Assembly (NCBI GenBank): GCA_963965975.1
Contig: OZ014416.1
Span: forward strand, 1,054,001-1,118,000
Source: Xestospongia bergquistia
Lineage: Eukaryota > Porifera > Demospongiae > Haplosclerida > Petrosiidae
Direction of reading: 5' to 3'
Length of the DNA stretch: 64,000 nt
In this document: in pieces, positions 10,979 to 62,825 of the stretch
Layout: every line of letters starts with the position of its first letter
How positions within the stretch are numbered: the first letter of the stretch is position 1
Position numbers and translations under genes: made by a program
The notes under the pieces: model-generated
Told to the model about the DNA's origin: nothing
Databases searched by the model: none
Seen by the model: only the letters and a program-made list of their open reading frames with translations

Positions 10979-15516
<4,538 letters not shown>

Positions 15517-15716
15517 ATATAAATTGTAACAACTCCTTCAAAATAATTTGTACTTTATAATTTACTTGTAAAATTTTATTTGAGTCTATGAAGTTTTCTC
15601 GTGTATATAACTAAGTCTAAAATGTATTCCTTAAAACAATACAAAGTGCATATGACATCATGTGTATGTATTTAGAACAAGAGGATTGACATCCTTATTT
15701 CCATATTCATCATGTG

Positions 15717-15763
<47 letters not shown>

Positions 15764-17244
15764 GCACATACACACACACACACATACACACATATATATA
15801 TATATCATTACTAAATTAGAGCATTCAATTCAGAAACCCAATGGGACAGTCTGAGATCACCATATTTTAATACTGATCCCTGTCACTACACCATAAAAGT
15901 TACTGTTAAAGTATATGGCCTGAGGTTTGGACTGTCCCACTGAGCTTCCATAGTATCATGATAGTTTCTGATACAACTATAAAAGTGTCAAACAAAATTA
16001 TCATTATTGATTTATATAGTGAAGAAAGTGGTCCAGAAGTAAAATTATTATTAACATAACAAGAAAACACAATAAATAGCAACAAAGAAGCTCAATATCC
16101 TGATATTGCTGACCGTTAGATACAGCTGTATTTTGTCTTGTTCGAGTGGATATCATCTCTGAAAATAAACATTAAAATTATTATGTTATTGATTGTGTGA
16201 GCAATAATATTATAATTATATTCATTACCTACCTACCTAACTCTGCAATATAGATATTTTATAGAAACTCAAGTTAAAAACTGTAACCCACAAACACTTC
16301 AGTTCTATAGTTGGAGAAATGGACGTCTCCTTTACTGAATTCTTATTATAATGATCAAAATGATGTAATCATAATGAGTTAGCAACTAATACTCCTACAA
16401 TCAAGTCAACATTCATAATTAACACAATCAGCAACATCCTAAACAATATAATTTGCATAGTAAGTGCTTTTTATAATTGTTAGTATTATTATAACAGACC
16501 ACTTCGTCCATATTCCATACATACATCATGTAATCCCTCCTATCCATCTATCATCTAACTAACTATACTCTGCAGCTGCCATATTATTGCCTAAAGCATA
16601 AATGAGCAATTTTATATCATATTCCTATATCACTGACATGTCATCTATACCCTAAAACCCAGTTACTATTTATAGCAACATTTAGGTGACATCATTTCAT
16701 TCCAATTGTGTATTTATAAAAGCATGCACCTGACAAGCTATACATATATTAATATTCAGCAAATAAAGGAACTTAACCTTGGTCACCATCTATATACCTT
16801 TATTGATGGATAGATGTGGCTGCAATGTATGATTACACATCCCAACAACCAAAACACTCCCTCTTATTCATAGAGTAAATAAAAATTATCAAGAAAACCA
16901 AATAAAAGATACTTACATTAATAAAAATCATTTTTATTTGTAAACATTGGAAAATAATGTTTTCAAAATGTCATCAGTGCATGCGTGTAGAGCTATATGT
17001 ATTGTCACATGACTTATTTGAAGTTACTCCTATTAACCTGGTTAATTATGATAATTTTACCAATGCCATACACATCCAAGATTTTTAAACAAATAACAAC
17101 ACTACATGTATACACACGCATTATGAAAGAGACTGATACATTGTAAGTAAACTATGGTACACAACTCTATTCTTGATTGAACTGGATGTAATCAAAAGAT
17201 GTTGTGAATATGCTATCTATCCTCATGTGTTTAGGAGGAGTGGA
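15517..17244. other. Intergenic region with 3' UTRs and a degenerate duplicated segment
   Basis: The convergent interval between the CLC channel (+) and the caspase/APOL gene (-) holds no gene I can support. It contains a (CA)n/(TA)n run at about 15718-15804 and a segment (about 15523-16060) whose degenerate direct copy lies at 19677-20050. Confidence 0.7.
15523..16060 (+). repeat. Left copy of a degenerate direct repeat flanking the caspase/APOL gene
   Basis: Shared landmarks with 19677-20050, in the same order and orientation: ATTTGTACTTTATAATT, GAGTCTATRAAGTTTTCTC, GTATATAACTAAG, TATGACATCAT, and further on TTATTAACATAACAAGAA. The similarity is patchy and contains indels, so the duplication is old. 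Confidence 0.6.
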
Positions 17245-19309
17245 TCAATTTCCACATCTTCCTGATCTGTGTCCTTCATTTTGCTCAACAAGAGAAAGTT
17301 CACTTTTCATTTCTTCAATTTTAGTCGTGTACCATACATAAATTTCGTCTTTCTCATTTTCACCATTTCCTGATTCTCTTAGTTCACGTCTATTCTTGAT
17401 AATTTGATATAAATCGAGAGGTGCAGTAACGAGTAAAGCAATACCGCCAAGCTGTGCTCCAAGAATAGCAACAGTTCTAAATGCAGTAGCGCCAACCTTA
17501 GCACGAACACTTCCAGGTTTAGGCTTTTCCTTACTTCCACTAACACAAGTTGCTATACTACCAGTAGTTTTCTCAATAGCCAAATTGTATTCATGGGTTG
17601 TATCATTTACATTTGCACTAATCTTATGATCAAACATAATATGATCATGCGCTTCCATTAACTTTCTATTAGTTTTTACTTTAGCATTTACAGCAGCAAT
17701 AAGTGACGTAGCAGTTCCAGCAGCTCCCATAGCAGTTCCAGCTAATGAAAATCCAAGTGATGCACCCATAGAAAATGGAATAAGGACTAGACCAATTGCA
17801 ACAAGAGTTCCTCCAACAAATAGACTTGTTGAAGATCCAGTGATTTTATAAAATCTGAAATCTTGGACAATTTTTAATATCTCATCTCTCTGTTGCTCAA
17901 GAAAAGTAATTGTTTGGCGACGAACAGGACACCAAATAGCAAGAGACAATTGACGTTCTTTGTCCAGACGTAGAAGATCCTCTCTATATGACAAGAGGAT
18001 AAGCAATGTAAATTTATGAGGTAAGAGGAAATTAATACATTGATTCGTAACTGTTTATATATACTTATAAGTCTGAGGAGAAAGCGTGATATTGTCTTAA
18101 TTATAATTGTTTGCTAGACTATAACAAATGAACAGCTACTTGTATAGTTAATTTAGTAATACACCTACACACATGATCTTAACAATAATATATAAATGTA
18201 TTGCAGATCTTTTAAAGTCATTGTTTAAACTGATCAGTTGTTTTAAGCAATTAAGTAAGTACTCTTTATTGTTACTGATTTCATATCAAGCATACCTGCT
18301 ATGAAGAAAATTATCATAGGTAACAAGGGGGAAGCTGTTCAGTATTTATTATATTGTGCATATGAAGTAAATCATATTTAATAGACATATCTCATATATA
18401 CATAGTGTTGGTTTGTTTCTTATTGTAACTTTACACATAGCAGCTGTGACAGTAATTACTATAATAGTATCAGTTTATATTAAGTACTGGTTAAAATAAT
18501 AAGTCACTTCAATAGTGATAGAAATAGTGTCAGTTTCCTTAGCTAGCAATAGACCTTCACACAAACTGTTTAGCTGACTATTGGAGGCTAACCCTTATGG
18601 AATAACTCATGTAAGTCTACTAACTAGCTCTATAATAATGGATATACAATCATATATGCGTGAATTTATAGTGTAGAAGGTTGCATCTAACTTACTTGAT
18701 TGAAACACCATTTTGAAGAGTAGGTAAAATAGTGTTACAATGACGATTGAGATTTGATTGCCATTCAACGTAATGACCTTTCGTTCTAATTTGTTCTTTG
18801 ATCCGATCAAATATATCACAAATTGGTGAATCATGGCAGTGAGCTTGCATACACTGTGTAAGCCTAGGTGTTTGAGATTCCTTCTGAGGGTATGTTAAAA
18901 GAACACAAGAATTAAAAGGAATGGCTAAACGATGTTTCGGAACAACAATGTTTTTCGTCAGAATAGTTTGGAAAAAGAAAAGTTTTGGCTTATTTATAAG
19001 TTTAGGACAGTTCTCATCAGAGAAATAGCTCAATATACCTTTGATTGGTATAGTCTCTTTGTTAGTATCATATATATTGGGCTTGTCTCCTTTGCTGAGA
19101 ATAATCAGAATAAAAGCATTCAAATCAAACTGATCATCAGCTGTAGCTCCTATAATTTCTATAAGCAGTCGAAAAAAGGTATTATAAGAAAGATTGTTAA
19201 AGCAAATGACAAAAAATCCAAATACATTTCTTAATATACGCGTTAGATCTTGCACTTCCTCACTCCGTTCCACTAGACCATTTAACTCATCATCTGGAGC
19301 AGCTACCAT
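17245..19309 (-). CDS. Inactive caspase-like domain fused to an apolipoprotein L-like domain
   Basis: Two large exons: 19309-18696 and 17983-17245, joined by a perfect GTAAGT donor and a TCATATAG acceptor, in phase. From the ATG at 19309 the product is 450 residues. Residues about 10-204 have a caspase p20/p10 layout: NLSYNTFFRLL, FILIILSKGD, IYDTNKETIPI, NKPKLFFFQT, then SCVLLTYPQ and ILPTLQNG. The catalytic His (usually LSHG) is Lys and the catalytic Cys (usually QACRG) lies in QTILT, so it should not cleave. Residues about 205-450 match APOL: a helical head, a hydrophobic hairpin rich in Gly/Ala (LFVGGTLVAIGLVLIPF, GAAGTATSL), a second hydrophobic helix (AILGAQLGGIALLV), and a charged helical tail. 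A short upstream exon (19476-19458, MSIEEP) has a good donor. Spliced to the TTTTCAG acceptor at 19406, it runs into a stop inside the 64-bp palindrome, so the true 5' end is uncertain. Role in death or membrane permeabilisation is inference. Confidence 0.75.
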
Positions 19310-19372
19310 ATTATCAATAATGATCACAAGGCCATTTATATATAAATGGCCTTGTGATCATTATTGATAATA
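19309..19372. repeat. Perfect 64-bp palindrome with no spacer
   Basis: The 32-base arms are exact reverse complements meeting at 19340/19341 (centre TTTATA|TATAAA). The outer edge touches the ATG used for the caspase/APOL protein. Either the transcript would carry a very stable hairpin at its 5' end, or the locus has suffered a foldback duplication or an assembly error. Confidence 0.95.
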
Positions 19373-19676
19373 AAGATTGATAATAAAGATTGTGTAATTT
19401 CTAGGTCTGAAAATCAATTACAATGAAATTATTAAACAAGCAAATATAAGAACATACCTGGCTCTTCAATTGACATTTTTAAAAGGTCTTTACTGTGTTT
19501 ATAAATTAGCTGTTACACGTACTTTCTGTAGTTTTGAGAAGTGGACTCTCTTCACTTTCTTAAGGGCCTTAATAATCTAATTAAAATTTATCATGACCAC
19601 ACAAGAGTGTTGATAACTGAACATGCATAGTCATTCTGCAAAACAAACATATAGTATTTTTTTTACTATGGAATTT

Positions 19677-20050
19677 CAAAATTGTAATGACTTCTTCAAA
19701 CTAATTTGTACTTTATAATTAACTTGCAAACTTTAACTGAGTCTATAAGTTTTCTCATGTATATAACTAAGACTAAAAGTTATTCCTTAAAATAAAATAA
19801 TTATAAAGGGAGTATGACATCATCATGTGTATGAACAAGAGAATTGATGTCCTTTTCTCCATCTTCATCATTCTCAGTGCATGTATATATCTACTATATC
19901 ATTAGAGCACCTTGAGAGCAAACTGGTCCACTTTGATTTATTGATATGGTTTATGATACAAGAATGAAATCTGTCTATCAAAACTGTTTTAGGCAGTCAG
20001 AGAGAGCTTAAAAAGACATGTTATTTTTTATTAACATAACAAGAACATCC
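19677..20050 (+). repeat. Right copy of the degenerate direct repeat flanking the caspase/APOL gene
   Basis: It is the partner of 15523-16060, in the same orientation. The rest of 19477-20121 contains no gene I can support. Confidence 0.6.
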
Positions 20051-20121: not shown

Positions 20122-21438
20122 TTAATCATGGTTAGGTATAATGGTGTCTATTTTATCTCCTTCTTCCTTTGATGATTCAGGTTGTGGAATTGAAATGTCT
20201 TGAGGGGAACTAACTGATCTTTGCCAAGATGGTATACCAGAATTAGAATTTCCTCGTTGTGGAGTGGGAAATTGATGTCTATTATAGTGGGTGTGGTTAA
20301 ATGTGGCATGTGATATATCAAGTATAGTTACCTGTTTAACAATAATCCTTTTAAGGTAGTTAGTTCAGAATTAATACTATGTAGTGAGTGCTCAGTAATC
20401 ACAGGAGTCTAAATAAGGTAATAATAAAATTAAATTATTTAAATATATAACTATAATGTACTTTGATATATTAAACAATTATTGATACTATGATATTAAA
20501 ATGTTAATAGCTTACTATTTACCTGTGATGTTAGTGTTGTTAACTGTTGTTGCTGTCTTTCCAGTAATGTCTAGAGAGAGAAAGATCATATTGAGAGACA
20601 TATATACATAGTACATTGCTTACCTTTATAGCTTGAGTTGACTCCTTTAACTCGCGTACTACAAGAAAATAACAATACATGTTACTATATCATTATAAGG
20701 AGCAAGATTTAATATACATATGCTAATAAAAATTTATATTACTTTATTTCAATGCCACTCGTTAATACCTGAGGCCTCAAGGTTTGTTTGAAGTTGTTGA
20801 ATACTTGATTCTACATCATCTAATCTTTCTCTTTGGACTCTTTGTGCTGAGAACCATTGGTTTATAAATGTCTATAGGCACAATATAATAAGTACTACAA
20901 TATCTCTTATAATACCTTGATCCAGTACACCACTAGTCCAACCACGCCTCCTATCATGACTCCACCCACTAAAATTTGTTGCCATGATAAAAGTCGTGAT
21001 GGTAATGGAGGAGGACCAGGAGGAGTTGTAAAGGAAGAAGAGGAGACAAGAGAAGTAGTTGCTCTTTTAGCTGCTTCTTGAGTAGCCCAATAGATCTCTT
21101 CTTCAGTTAAACCTACAAGAGAGAGAGAGGGGGGGGAAGGAAGAGGGAGAGAGAGAGTACAAGTAATTGTAATATAGTATTGACCTTTTTTTGTTAGGAA
21201 TGCAACTTTATCCACTAATTGACTACTTGCTACTCGTGGATTGATTAGAAACTTAATAGCAACATCTAACTACAGAGAGAGAGTGCTTAAGAAATATAAA
21301 TTATAACTTTACCATTTTACGTCTTTCTGGGGCTATTCTTATCAAAAAATGTTCGTAAGAAGGATCTTGCGGTACAAATCCTTTCTTTTCCGTCTTTTCT
21401 TCTCTCTCCCCACCAGCAATAGGTTCCATATCACTCAT
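20122..21438 (-). CDS. PEX14: Peroxisomal membrane docking protein PEX14
   Basis: Eight exons: 21438-21313, 21269-21185, 21112-20916, 20871-20769, 20658-20624, 20570-20523, 20408-20332, 20278-20122; 275 residues. After a variable N-terminus comes the conserved PEX5/PEX19-binding helical domain (VAIKFLINPRVASS, FLTKKGLTEEEIYWA). Then a Pro-rich linker, one hydrophobic segment (VGGVMIGGVVGLVVYW), a coiled coil (VQRERLDDVESSIQQL), and the family's C-terminal block (LTTLKGLLLNR followed by HQFPTP and IPSWQ). PEX14 sits in the peroxisomal membrane and docks the cargo-loaded PEX5 receptor. At 275 residues it is shorter than the vertebrate protein, mainly through a short acidic tail. Its start lies only 94 bp after the SRPRB stop on the same strand. 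Confidence 0.95.
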
Positions 21439-27140: not shown

Positions 27141-29071
27141 TTATTGTATGACAAGGTCTTTGAGAACTCCAAAATTAGGACTACCCCAGCCTGATGCTGG
27201 ATCCCATCCTTTGGTTGCTTTAAAACCACCACAAAGGACGTTGTCCCCATAGTTTTCACCCTTAGTAATATCAGAGAATCCTTGTCCTTGAAGTTTGTAT
27301 AGCAAAGGATTAAAAAACCCTAGAGTACTCATGCCTTTGTTAAGACGCACATCATTTAGTAATGAGATGATTCCAGCCACAGTAGGAGTGGAACAACTTG
27401 TACCACCTACAACAGCAACCTCTCCTCCAACATAAATGAGAAATCCCACCGCAAAAGCACTGACATCAGGATAGGCACGGCCTTGGGGATTAAAATAAGA
27501 TGTATTTGGTGCTTTACCACTATTAAGATAATTCTTGACAGTTTGGTTTTGGTAATCAGGAGTACGAAAGACATTGGAAAACCCTCCACCTCCATATGGC
27601 CATACTTTTGTCATGGACTCAGTACCACCTACTGATGTAACATATGGGCTACTGCTAGGCCAATGAAGGTGGAATTTGCCACTTTTGCAATCCACACCCT
27701 TATCACCTGACGAAAACAAGATCGTACGTCCAGATATTCCAAGTTTTTTAAACTCGTCATCACAACGTTGAAGATATGATTGATCAATGGTACTTTCCAC
27801 ATCTCCATAGCTTACTGAATGTACCCGGGGTGAGTCTGAAGTGTTAGCAAGAAAGGTCAACCAGGAAAGGAAATACTCTTGTTTCCCATTAGAATAAGTT
27901 GATACGGAGATAAACCAAGTATGTACTTTTTTTCCTACGGCTAAAAGAGAGTACTCACATCAATCCATTCATCTATTCATTATTGCATACCTGTGATATA
28001 CTCCACATCTAATGATGCTTCAATTCCAGGACTATTGGGTTTATTTGTACCAATAACCTTTGCAATAGGATTACTGGGAATACCAAATTTATCTTGAAAG
28101 TCTGTCAAATCAGAAGGATTAAAATATTGTTTGAGGAAACTGGCAATAGCTTGTGAATTGTTTTCATTGCTACTCTGATAATCACTGATGTTGTAGTCTT
28201 TACTGATGGATATAGGAGAGACCCCAAGAGACTTTGGTCGTCCATAGGAGAAGTGGGTTTTTACTTGATCTGGATAAGGGAATTTATCAATACAACACAT
28301 GAAGTCTAAATGTGGTTGTAGTGAAGAAGGGACGGTGTATTCTAATGTACGAATGGTTGTCATATCTGGTTTGTCTCGATGTCGAAACTTATAAAATGTG
28401 GCAGAGAACAGGTTCTCTGCAACCGAGACAGGTATATCTGCTATCACAAAACCTTCTCCAATAGTGAAATCGGGTTGTACTCCTACAGCTCTTAGAACCT
28501 CCTTGACTTTAGCCACACCCTCAGGATAAGCGTAGACATATTTTGCAATTTCTTCTAGAGACATATGGTGTCCATAGTTGGGAGAATCAGGATCTGACAC
28601 TGAGAGTAATGTCCTCTCCAACCAATCTCTATTAGCCTGTTTGAGGGCTAAAGTCACATGTACCTATAATAGGAACAATGTAATTATGTTTGTATAATTT
28701 TGGAACCCAATTACTCATATATAGTGGGTAATTTTGGAGGGAGAAATATTGGCAAATTGGGCAAATTGCATTTCATTCTTATTAGCCAATGTTTTAATTA
28801 GGGGGTGCAGTAGTAGGTGGAACAAGTCATTTAGTTCTAATTTATATTGATTTGTCAATATTTTTCCCCTCCAATATTACCCACTATACACTACTGCACA
28901 CATATAGAACAAGCTATACCTTATATACATATAGATTGTATTGTAATATTAACATACCAGTTCATTTGGATCAGCTCTTTTAGACAATACCCACTCTGGA
29001 GGTACATCTGTTGCTATTGTCAGTTGTATGACAGCAACAACACAGAAACACTGTAGTACATTGGTAGCCAT
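27141..29071 (-). CDS. TPP1: Tripeptidyl-peptidase 1-like serine-carboxyl protease (sedolisin, S53), copy A
   Basis: Three exons: 29071-28958, 28663-27991, 27940-27141; 528 residues. There is a signal peptide of about 20 residues, then a prodomain (SPNYGHHMSLEEIAKYV ... SVAENLFSATFYKF) and the S53 catalytic domain. Active-site elements seen: Glu and Asp in EASLDVEYITG, the oxyanion Asp in SSGDKGVDC, and the nucleophile Ser in GGTSCSTPTVAG. Length and order fit lysosomal TPP1, which removes tripeptides from N-termini at acid pH. It forms a direct tandem with copy B, which shares its intron positions and most of its sequence. I see no frame break, so both copies look functional. Confidence 0.93.
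28722..28886. mobile_element. MITE (TA target site) in intron 1 of TPP1 copy A
   Basis: 165 bp with 20-bp terminal inverted repeats TAGTGGGTAATTTTGGAGGG / CCCTCCAATATTACCCACTA (one mismatch), flanked by TA on both sides as for Tc1/mariner-derived MITEs. The second copy sits at the same place in TPP1 copy B. Confidence 0.75.
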
Positions 29072-29411: not shown

Positions 29412-31333
29412 TTATTGTATGACAAGGTCTTTGAGAACTCCAAAATTAGGACTACCCCAGCCTGATGCTGGATCCCATCCTTTGATTGCTTTAAAACCAC
29501 CACAAAGGACGTTGTCCCCATAGTTTTCACCCTTAGTAATATCGGAGAATCCTTGTCCTTGAAGTTTGTATAGCAATGGATTAAAAAACCCTAGAGTACT
29601 CATGCCTTTGTTAAGACGCACATCATTTAGTAATGAGATGATTCCAGCCACAGTAGGAGTGGAACAACTTGTACCACCTACAACAGCAACCTCTCCTCCA
29701 ACATAAATGAGAAATCCCACCGCAAAAGCACTGACATCAGGATAGGCACGGCCTTGGGGATTGAAATAAGATGTATTTGGCGCTTTACCACTATTAAGAT
29801 AATTCTTGACAGTTTGCATTTGGTAATCAGGAGTACGAAAGACATTGGAAAACCCTCCACCTCCATATGGCCATACTCTTGTCATGGACTCAGTACCACC
29901 TACTGATGTAATATATGGGCTACTGGTAGGCCATCCAGGGCGGAATTTGCCACTTTTGCAATCCACACCATCATCACCTGATCCAAACAAGATCGTACGT
30001 CCAGATATTCCAAGTTTTTTAAACTCGTCATCACAACGTTGGAGATATGATTGATCAATGGTACTTTCCACATCTCCATAACTTACTGAATGTACCCAGG
30101 GTGAGTCTGAAGTGTTAGCAAGAAAGGTCAACCAGGAAAGGAAATCCTCTTGTTTCCCATTAGAATAAGTTGATACGGAGATAAACCAAGTACGTACTTT
30201 TTTTCCTACGGCTAAAAGAGAGTACTCACATCCATTCATCTATCCATTATTGCATACCTGTGATATACTCCACATCTAATGATGCTTCACTTCCAGGACT
30301 GTTTGGTTTATTTGTACCAATAACCTTTGCAATAGGGTTACTGGGAATACCAAATTCATCTTGAAAGTCTGTCAAATCAGAAGGATCAAAATATTCTTTG
30401 AGAAAACTGGCAATAGCTTGTGAATTGTTTTCATTACTACTCTGATAATCACTGATGTTGTAATTTTTACTGATGGATATAGGAGAGACCCCAAGAGACT
30501 TTGGTCGTTCATAGGAGAAGTGGGTTTTTACTTGATCTGGATAAGGGAATTTATTAATACAACACATAAAGTCTAAATGTGGTTGTAGTGAAGAAGGGAT
30601 GGTGTATTCTAATGTACGAATAGTTGTCATATCTGGTTTGTCTCGATGTTGAAAATTATAAAACGTGGCAGAGAACAGGTTCTCTGCAACTGAGACAGGT
30701 ATATCTGCTATTGCAAAACCTTCTCCGATAGTGAAATTAGGTAATACTCCTACAGCTCTTAGAACCTCCTTGACTTTAGCCACACCCTCAGAATAAGCGT
30801 GGACATATTTTGCAATTTCTTCTAGAGACATATGGTGTCCATAGTTGGGAGAATCAGGATCTGACACTGAGAGTAATGTCCTCTCCAACCAATCTCTATT
30901 AGTCTGTTTGAGGGCTAAAGTCACATGTACCTATAATAGAAACAATGTAATTATGTTTGTATAATTTTGGAAGCCAAGTACTCATATATAGTGGGTAATT
31001 TTGGAGGGAGAAAATATTGGCAAATTGGGCAAATTGCATTTCATTCCTATTAGCCAATGTTTTAATTAGGGGTGTGGTAGTAGGTGGAACAAGTCATTTA
31101 GTTCTAATTTATATTGATTTGTCAATATTTTCTCCCTCCAATATTACCTGCTATACACTACTGTACACATATAGAACAAGCTATACCTTATATATATATA
31201 GATTGTAATATTAACATACCAGTTCATTTGGATCAGCTCTTTTAGACAATACCCACTCTGGAGGTACATCTGTTGCTATTGTCAGTTGTATGACAGCAAC
31301 AACACAGAAACACTGTAGTACATTGGTAGCCAT
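29412..31333 (-). CDS. TPP1: Tripeptidyl-peptidase 1-like serine-carboxyl protease, copy B
   Basis: Exons 31333-31220, 30930-30258, 30211-29412; 528 residues, the same layout and exon lengths as copy A. The signal peptide is followed by the prodomain and the S53 domain, with EASLDVEYITG, GSGDDGVDC and GGTSCSTP all intact. Differences from copy A are scattered substitutions, for example SSGDKG to GSGDDG beside the oxyanion Asp. Its 5' end lies 154 bp from the divergent tRNA-Ile gene, so its promoter must be short or shared with the tRNA's flank. Confidence 0.93.
30989..31153. mobile_element. MITE in intron 1 of TPP1 copy B
   Basis: It is the same element at the same position as in copy A, with a few substitutions in the right inverted repeat. 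It was therefore inserted before the tandem duplication. Confidence 0.75.
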
Positions 31334-33136: not shown

Positions 33137-34829
33137 ATGGCTGCTTGTTATATGGTTCTGTTGCTCTGTGTTCTATCTTCTATTGGTCGTGGAAGCTCTG
33201 TTTTTGATCACTGGGAACGGATTGGTCAACCAGCACCAAATAATTTGGTTTGTATCAATTTAACACAATAACTTATGTTTGTTGTACAAATTAGGTACAC
33301 GTGACTTTAGCCCTCAAACAGACTAATAGAGAATGGTTGGAGAGGACATTACTCTCAGTGTCAGATCCTGATTCTCCCAACTATGGACACCATATGTCTC
33401 TAGAAGAAATTGTAAAATATGTTCATGCTTATCCTGAGGGTGTGGCTAAAGTCAAGGAGGTTCTAGGAGCTATAGGAGTACAACCCAATTTCACTATCGG
33501 AGAAGGTTTTGCAATAGCAGATATACCTGTCTCAGTTGCAGAGAACCTGTTCTCTGCCACGTTTTACAAGTTCCAACACCGTGAATACAAAACTCTTACA
33601 ACTATTCGTTCTACAAGTCACTCAATACCGACTACATTATCTCCATTTATCAGTTTTGTGTCTGGAATAAGTGAGTTCCCAAAAGTTCCAGTGAAAAAAA
33701 CTATAAAAGCTCTTAGAGATGGTGGCAATAGTGCTGGAGATGTAACACCTGATTTTATAGACAAGTCTTACAATATTCAAGGCTATGTTTCTAAAAATGT
33801 AAATAATTCACAAGCGGTCGTTGGTTTTTTAAATCAGTTTTTCAGTCCGGAAGATTTGAAAGAGTTTCAACAGCAATTCAAGCTGCCTTTGAAACCAGTT
33901 GTAAAGATAGTCGGTGAAAATGATGGAAGCAACCAAGGGATGGAGGCTAATTTAGATGTTCAGTACATTAGTGCTATTGGACGTAATGTTGACACTTGGT
34001 TCTATTCAGTGACTAGTCGTGCTAATGGTAACCAAGAGGACTTCCTGACGTGGGTGTTGGAACTAGCAAACAGCACGGACGTGCCATTGGTTCATTCTGC
34101 TAGTTATGGTGACAAAGAGTCCAGTATTGATGCTTCTTTTATGAATCGTGTTGAAGAGGAGTTTATGAAACTTGGACTTTCAGGTCGGACTCTGATCTTT
34201 GCATCAGGAGACTCTGGTACTTCCTGTGATATATTTAAGCATGGTGCATTTGAACCAATGTGGCCAGCGAGTAGCCCCTATGTGACAACTGTGGGTGGGA
34301 CTGTTAGCATGACTGAATGTTGGGATCACAGTGGTGGTGGATTTTCAAATGTAAATGAGATGCCTTCATATCAGAGAGACGCTGTAAATACTTATCTTAA
34401 AAGTGGTGTTGCTCCTGACACTAAGTATTTTAATACATCAGGACGAGCCTATCCAGATTTGGGCGTATTTTCCATTAACTTTGAAATTGTTTATGTGAGT
34501 ATTCCATGGCCCATTGATGGTACCAGCTGTTCTGCGCCAACAACTGCTGGAGTCATCTCTCTATTAAATGACATACGCTTGAATGCTGGACTCAGTAGTT
34601 TGGGATTTCTGAATCCTCTGATATATAAACTAAAGGGCAATGGGTTTTTCGATATTTCAAAGGTGAGATGTATGGGAAGAATATAAAGTTCTACTTATAC
34701 ATGCTTTGTTTCAAATAGGGCAATAACCATGGTAGTATTCTATGCAATGGTTTTTCTGCTACTCAAGGTTGGGATCCCACGTCAGGATGGGGTAGTCCAA
34801 ACTTTGGAGTCCTTAAGACATTAATCTGA
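33137..34829 (+). CDS. TPP1: Tripeptidyl-peptidase 1-like protease, divergent copy C
   Basis: Exons 33137-33247, 33295-34662, 34719-34829; 529 residues. The signal peptide (MVLLLCVLSS) is unrelated to those of A and B. Catalytic elements are present: Glu and Asp in EANLDVQYISA, Asp in ASGDSGTSC, Ser in DGTSCSAPTTAG. The gene lacks the A/B intron after the EASLD region and has instead an intron close to the C-terminus (after DISK). Exon 2 opens with about 285 bp nearly identical to copies A and B. Beyond that the protein identity falls to roughly half. It is otherwise intact. Confidence 0.92.
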
Positions 34830-40215: not shown

Positions 40216-57114
<16,899 letters not shown>

Positions 57115-62743: not shown

Positions 62744-62825
62744 GTGTTGAAATAATGACTATGATAGCATATTTTGTTTAAATTAATTTAAACAAAATAT
62801 GCTATCATAGTCATTATTCCAACAC
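62744..62825. repeat. 82-bp palindrome, one mismatch, no spacer
   Basis: The arms GTGTTGAAATAATGACTATG ... AAATT and their complement meet at 62784/62785. In the parallel 3' flank of copy 2 (about 60980-61025) only the forward arm is present, so this is an inverted duplication particular to copy 4. Confidence 0.9.

Follow-up and report, generated by a model that had tools for sequence, protein, structure and literature searches.

A pseudocaspase-apolipoprotein L gene of the sponge Xestospongia bergquistia belongs to a family that shares a cassette of two exons

The window analysed here is a stretch of 64,000 nucleotides of the Xestospongia bergquistia genome (contig OZ014416.1), and it carries on its minus strand, at 19476-17245, a gene in which a caspase-like exon is followed by an exon for an apolipoprotein L (ApoL) domain. 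The original prediction had described a catalytically dead caspase fused to an APOL-type hydrophobic hairpin, encoded by two exons joined in phase by consensus splice sites. Joining 19309-18696 to 17983-17245 in frame across the intron at 18695-17984, a phase-2 intron with GT-AG ends, did give the proposed product of 450 residues. In this product both profiles were matched above their Pfam cut-offs, Peptidase_C14 over residues 16-115 (E=3.1e-13, 50.4 bits, cut-off 21.4) and ApoL over residues 230-350 (E=2.3e-9, 37.6 bits, cut-off 25.9). The ApoL match spans only positions 68-187 of the 298 in the profile, and the sole further Pfam family listed, L27 (E=0.25), fell under its cut-off. What did not stand is the start of the gene model: the first caspase strand, YINGLVIIIDN, lies just upstream of the ATG at 19309 in the same open frame, and this ATG is therefore not the natural start of the domain. 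A short first exon lies further upstream (Table 1), and its counterpart (AAAAATG...CAAGGTATG) is present in 3 of the 4 paralogues examined on contig C2.

The predicted loss of catalysis was borne out. The catalytic His is replaced by Lys (LSKG for LSHG) and the catalytic Cys by Ile (QTI for QAC), and because both residues expected of an active protease are replaced, we classify the domain, from its sequence, as a pseudocaspase. When this exon was modelled singly, a confident structure was obtained (pTM 0.86), which matches caspases and c-FLIP structurally, as expected of a caspase fold. In the ApoL exon, two hydrophobic stretches of at least 19 residues were counted, the first around LFVGGTLVAIGLVLIPFSM and the second around VAILGAQLGGIALLVTAPL, which agrees with the predicted hairpin as a count of hydropathy and not as a structure.

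We searched the host genome (146.46 Mb in 21 contigs) with both profiles and found at least 25 ApoL and at least 99 C14 matches, these being lower bounds because only the best candidates were scored. When the matches were mapped together and the frames read, a caspase-like exon lay upstream on the same strand in 22 of the 25 ApoL matches. By our own arithmetic, 99 C14 matches placed at random would be expected to supply 25 loci with a total of about 0.03 neighbours on the same strand in the 3 kb upstream. The fusion proposed for a single locus is thus real as an architecture, and it extends to 22 such pairs, some of them behind a caspase or a kinase. For the three remaining ApoL matches, two on C4 and one on C8, about 1.3-1.5 kb of upstream sequence was read. 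The C4 genes (C4:1451k and C4:1396k) each have their own ATG and one open frame, with no caspase exon in the roughly 1.3 kb read upstream, so that a plain ApoL type exists beside the fused one. At C8:2862k a kinase-like exon precedes the ApoL exon; it was counted as lacking a caspase because no caspase exon was found in the stretch read, and no in-phase join from kinase to ApoL was found there. The converse also occurs, and dead caspase-like exons are present without ApoL: at C7:359-360k a pseudocaspase exon comes after a kinase exon and no ApoL was seen beyond it, and at C3:2.240-2.248 Mb intact-type caspases are followed by dead caspase-like exons without Pfam-detectable ApoL. One exon of 178 residues in the C3 cluster, taken by eye for ApoL, did not match the ApoL profile, and C3 therefore stands outside the 22. 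Searches with ApoL alignment A2 gave 56 pattern matches in prokaryotic contigs and 31 in viral contigs, none of which was confirmed, and this argues, at that sensitivity, against contamination by bacteria and against ApoL having been transferred recently. Two components of bacterial pore-forming toxins were weakly matched when profile A2 was compared with solved structures (best E 0.0029 and 0.0053); they cover the hydrophobic stretch only and were not used as evidence.

Alignment of the caspase domains revealed that both catalytic residues are absent from all 22 ApoL-linked domains, while they are kept in 8 of 9 upstream or adjacent caspase domains (7 in C1 units and 2 in C3) and in 11 of 12 further caspases, which were selected manually among the C14 loci retrieved from the 99 matches. 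In a maximum-likelihood tree of 43 domains, from which the dead caspase-like exons of C3 and C7:359k were left out, a single branch set the 22 ApoL-linked domains apart from the rest (94/97; recovered in 96% of 200 bootstrap trees). The 7 upstream caspases of C1 likewise formed a separate group (100/99). A single origin of the ApoL-linked pseudocaspases is supported by this tree, for a sample of 21 other domains from a larger set. A second tree was built from 19 of the 22 fused ApoL exons and the two C4 genes, leaving out one identical copy, one frameshifted copy and one with a stop. Here all of the fused exons were separate from the C4 genes (100/100), and the window gene grouped with the C2 and kinase-bearing genes (100/100), as it also does in the pseudocaspase tree. 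Several small groups are common to both trees, and a C1 group of 11 in the pseudocaspase tree lacked resolution in the ApoL tree. By and large, the two exons have moved together. In comparisons of paralogues by the Nei-Gojobori method, dN/dS was 0.25-0.58 in 9 of 10 pseudocaspase pairs with computable dS and 0.22-0.68 in 9 of 10 ApoL pairs, which indicates moderate purifying selection on both parts in the family as a whole. The tenth ApoL pair, two near-identical C2 copies, gave 5.8 on a dS of 0.005. Between these copies (C2:4266k and C2:4235k) the pseudocaspase exon has a dN of 0.002 and the ApoL exon a dN of 0.029, and the ApoL exons also differ in length in frame.

The joins between exons are equally regular. 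All 22 pairs possess a phase-2 GT-AG join from pseudocaspase to ApoL exon at or near the homologous place, 18 of them obtained in the first search and 4 more with looser limits, and in the models the introns are between 57 and 2607 nt long. Several pairs have further joins that score, and in C1:2046k and C1:1272k one of these is in another phase. On the upstream side, the join into the pseudocaspase exon is in phase 1. It comes from a kinase exon at all 3 kinase loci with pseudocaspase and ApoL (and likewise at C7:359k), from a linker exon in 7 of 8 C1 units, and, in the window gene as in 3 of the 4 C2 paralogues examined, from a short first exon. The window gene thus belongs to a family whose members share a cassette of two exons. 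The first exon of the cassette encodes the pseudocaspase, with a phase-1 join before it and a phase-2 join after it, and the second encodes ApoL; the cassette is attached in compatible phase to different front ends. A kinase precedes it in 3 of the 22 (C6:2510k, C7:256k and C7:357k), with protein kinase matches of 1.8e-32 and 1.5e-32 in the two exons scanned with Pfam and, at C7:256k, one stop in the kinase exon and one in the ApoL exon. A caspase precedes it in 9 of the 22, all on C1; six of these are intact, with both residues in an open exon (1183k, 1191k, 2043k, 2050k, 2061k and 2075k), two are split over two frames (2054k and 2068k), and one has lost both catalytic residues (4190k). In the 7 C1 units with such a linker, a phase-2 join from the upstream caspase exon to the linker is available too, which makes caspase, linker, pseudocaspase and ApoL readable as one chain. 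Against this reading, the caspase donor is weak in 4 of the 7 units (GTTAGA twice and GTACAT twice), some units have alternative paths that score as well, a frameshift affects the eighth unit (C1:2064-2070k), and one C3 unit subjected to the same test lacked the pattern. An Asp near the end of the linker exon was considered by eye as a caspase cleavage site and is not claimed, the residues that follow being atypical.

In the cell-death pairs caspase/gasdermin and RIPK3/MLKL, the protein that permeabilises the membrane is under the control of a caspase or a kinase. The logic that we propose for the sponge family is the same, with separate proteins there and one chain here, and the comparison is one of logic only. 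Human APOLs have been studied as immune and kidney-disease proteins; to our knowledge none of them has a caspase domain, and we know of no ApoL effector under caspase control. The window protein resembles human APOL1-6 in its Pfam ApoL domain, over the part of the profile given above. The long form of c-FLIP (CFLAR) is the inactive partner of caspase-8, and its likeness to the window pseudocaspase comes from the structural match, to which we would add a comparable pairing; unlike the window protein, it begins with death-effector domains and is not known to have an ApoL domain. The caspase-X of the coral Acropora millepora unites an inactive and an active caspase domain within a single chain, a combination that we also propose for the C1 units, and killing by the active domain on its own exceeded that by the full-length form, according to the part of PMC4715348 available to us. 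In that part the inactive domain comes first and ApoL is unmentioned, whereas the C1 units have a caspase, then a pseudocaspase and then ApoL, and the window gene has the inactive domain alone. Of the human proteins, APOL1, 3 and 6 were cytolytic and APOL2, 4 and 5 were not, and APOL1-5 produced conductances in bilayers (PMC8358165, in its accessible part); PMC7891394 reviews a part played by APOLs in apoptosis. The original prediction knew of no described family with this domain order, and no caspase-ApoL fusion was found in the titles or abstract starts among the top literature matches listed (for example 20 of 146 and 15 of 132), which cover the open literature; outside it, an unremarked gene prediction of this architecture may exist. 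ApoL did not occur in the accessible portion of PMC8195603.

The best explanation, which we hold tentatively, is that the family encodes ApoL membrane effectors controlled through caspase-type docking. The ApoL part would insert into a membrane and permeabilise or remodel it, and the pseudocaspase part would set the timing through a pairing with an active caspase domain like that of c-FLIP with caspase-8. In the C1 units, with an intact caspase upstream in compatible phase, the pairing would occur in cis within one chain; in the window protein, which has no caspase of its own, it would occur in trans; and the kinase-bearing members would be switched by their kinase. Cell-autonomous immunity or programmed cell death would be the likely setting, because of the tandem arrays, the decayed copies and the roles of both domain families elsewhere. 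A stronger version, in which these are one-chain death or defence machines whose active caspase, paired in cis with its dead partner, directly controls a permeabilising ApoL domain, with the kinase in the controlling place in parallel versions, we consider rather unlikely. For the window protein, membrane action and its control are what we infer: of the membrane effector under a caspase-like docking module that had been predicted, the two domains, the lost catalysis and the splice join stood, while membrane action and docking are plausible from human APOLs, c-FLIP/caspase-8 and coral caspase-X. Several observations weigh against effector control. The structure model of the ApoL exon is poor (pLDDT 56.8), with no structural match at E<=0.001, and no recognisable cleavage site was established before ApoL. 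For ten of the 22, namely the window gene, four genes on C1 and five on C2, no upstream caspase or kinase was seen, and control would be in trans. The upstream sequence read for these ten extends over about 3 kb at most and is close to nil at C1:8512k, so that a more distant front exon may exist; no caspase open frame was seen in the 2.8 and 3.0 kb upstream of C1:1268k and C1:1275k. Finally, the window copy may be broken by a palindrome at the start of its exon 2, to which we return below.

The main rival is that the pseudocaspase is the working part, a c-FLIP-like modulator of other caspases, and that ApoL forms no pore and only binds lipid, placing the pseudocaspase on a membrane. The retention of the fold with loss of catalysis in 22 of 22 speaks for such a tethered regulator, as does the finding that half of the human APOLs (APOL2, 4 and 5) were not cytolytic (PMC8358165, in its accessible part), which means that an ApoL domain does not imply killing; it is made unlikely by an ApoL part as constrained as the pseudocaspase in most pairs and by the two C4 genes, in which no caspase exon was seen and ApoL has a use of its own. 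A protein of membrane trafficking or remodelling under caspase or kinase control, without killing, would agree with the description of APOL1 and APOL3 as controlling membrane dynamics in the available parts of PMC11726835 and PMC7891394. We consider this improbable, since the tandem arrays and decayed copies resemble defence genes more, an impression only. That the two exons belong to separate neighbouring genes, or to a mistaken gene model, could be argued because the models are known here from genomic sequence alone; the phase-2 GT-AG join in every pair across introns of 57 to 2607 nt, together with several groups shared by the two exon trees, makes this exceedingly improbable.

A different doubt concerns the window copy, which might be a decaying pseudogene in a functional family, a possibility that we take seriously without favouring it. 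A perfect spacerless palindrome of 64 nt lies over the start of exon 2, and no counterpart was seen in the sequence of the C2 paralogues examined. In two C2 paralogues the caspase exon begins at a TTTTCAG acceptor and reads ETEITPEIKGLAIVVDN; the acceptor is retained in the window gene, whose exon begins DLEITQ and then enters the palindrome, one arm of which contains the coding sequence of the gene's own first caspase strand. When this acceptor (AG at 19407) is used, exon 2 starts at 19406 and meets a stop after 29 codons, as expected of a pseudogene, and other members of the family are also broken, namely C7:256k by stops and C1:2064-2070k by a frameshift. However, an acceptor within the palindrome (AG at 19351) keeps the frame and leaves 470 codons open; outside the palindrome, 450 codons run without a stop at a dS of about 0.6-1.0 from the nearest relatives, dN/dS is 0.40-0.66 in six comparisons including the window gene, and the palindrome could be an assembly error. 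Two further perfect spacerless palindromes that are not simple AT runs occur at window 62751-62818 (68 nt) and at C1:2045121-2045202 (82 nt), and the three together reflect fold-back events that are recent and common in this genome, or else an artefact of assembly.

If the stronger, one-chain version is true, one cassette would achieve within one protein what takes two in caspase/gasdermin and RIPK/MLKL. The 22 of 25 ApoL matches behind a caspase-type exon tie ApoL to the control of cell death. How ApoL domains are controlled in early-branching animals is a question on which this genome bears, and the family offers testable proteins for ApoL as an executioner under caspase or kinase control, for the purpose of dead caspases, and for animal executioners beyond gasdermins and MLKL.

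Table 1. Coordinates of the window and of features at the pseudocaspase/ApoL locus (window positions unless stated)
Feature	Position	Strand	Description	Basis
Window	C6:1054001-1118000		positions 1,054,001-1,118,000 of the genome contig labelled C6
Exon 1	19458..19476	-	MSIEEP; ends in phase 1	ATG and GTATGT donor
Palindrome	19309..19372		perfect, spacerless, 64 nt, over start of exon 2	sequence
Exon 2	18696..19350	-	pseudocaspase domain; extent valid if acceptor within palindrome is used
Codon at catalytic His position	19091..19093	-	Lys (LSKG for LSHG)	sequence, alignment
Codon at catalytic Cys position	18962..18964	-	Ile (QTI for QAC)	sequence, alignment
Intron 2	17984..18695	-	GT-AG, consensus ends, phase 2
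Exon 3	17245..17983	-	ApoL domain and stop codon	Pfam ApoL 2.3e-9, hydropathy
AATAAA	16933..16938; second at 16799-16804	-	possible polyadenylation signal 3' of stop	motif match only

In the window, a direct repeat of about 199 bp, 80% identical, flanks the gene (15521-15713 and 19679-19871). A short direct repeat had also suggested a second ApoL relic near 15 kb, which was rejected because no convincing translated match was obtained. Upstream of the fusion gene on the same strand lies a Pex14_N exon (9.2e-7; 20910-21269, minus strand), and on its other side a CLC chloride channel gene (4.4e-6 and 3.7e-16; 11519-13573, plus strand). Three similar frames for pro-kumamolisin/TPP1-like proteases are arranged in tandem and inverted at 27141-28663 (minus), 29412-30930 (minus) and 33295-34686 (plus), with Pfam run on the third only (E=8.6e-24). 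SRCR-type and Sushi exons at 43798-53764 (plus), two frames of which gave Pfam matches to SRCR (6.1e-34) and Sushi (2e-9), probably belong to a scavenger-receptor gene or genes.
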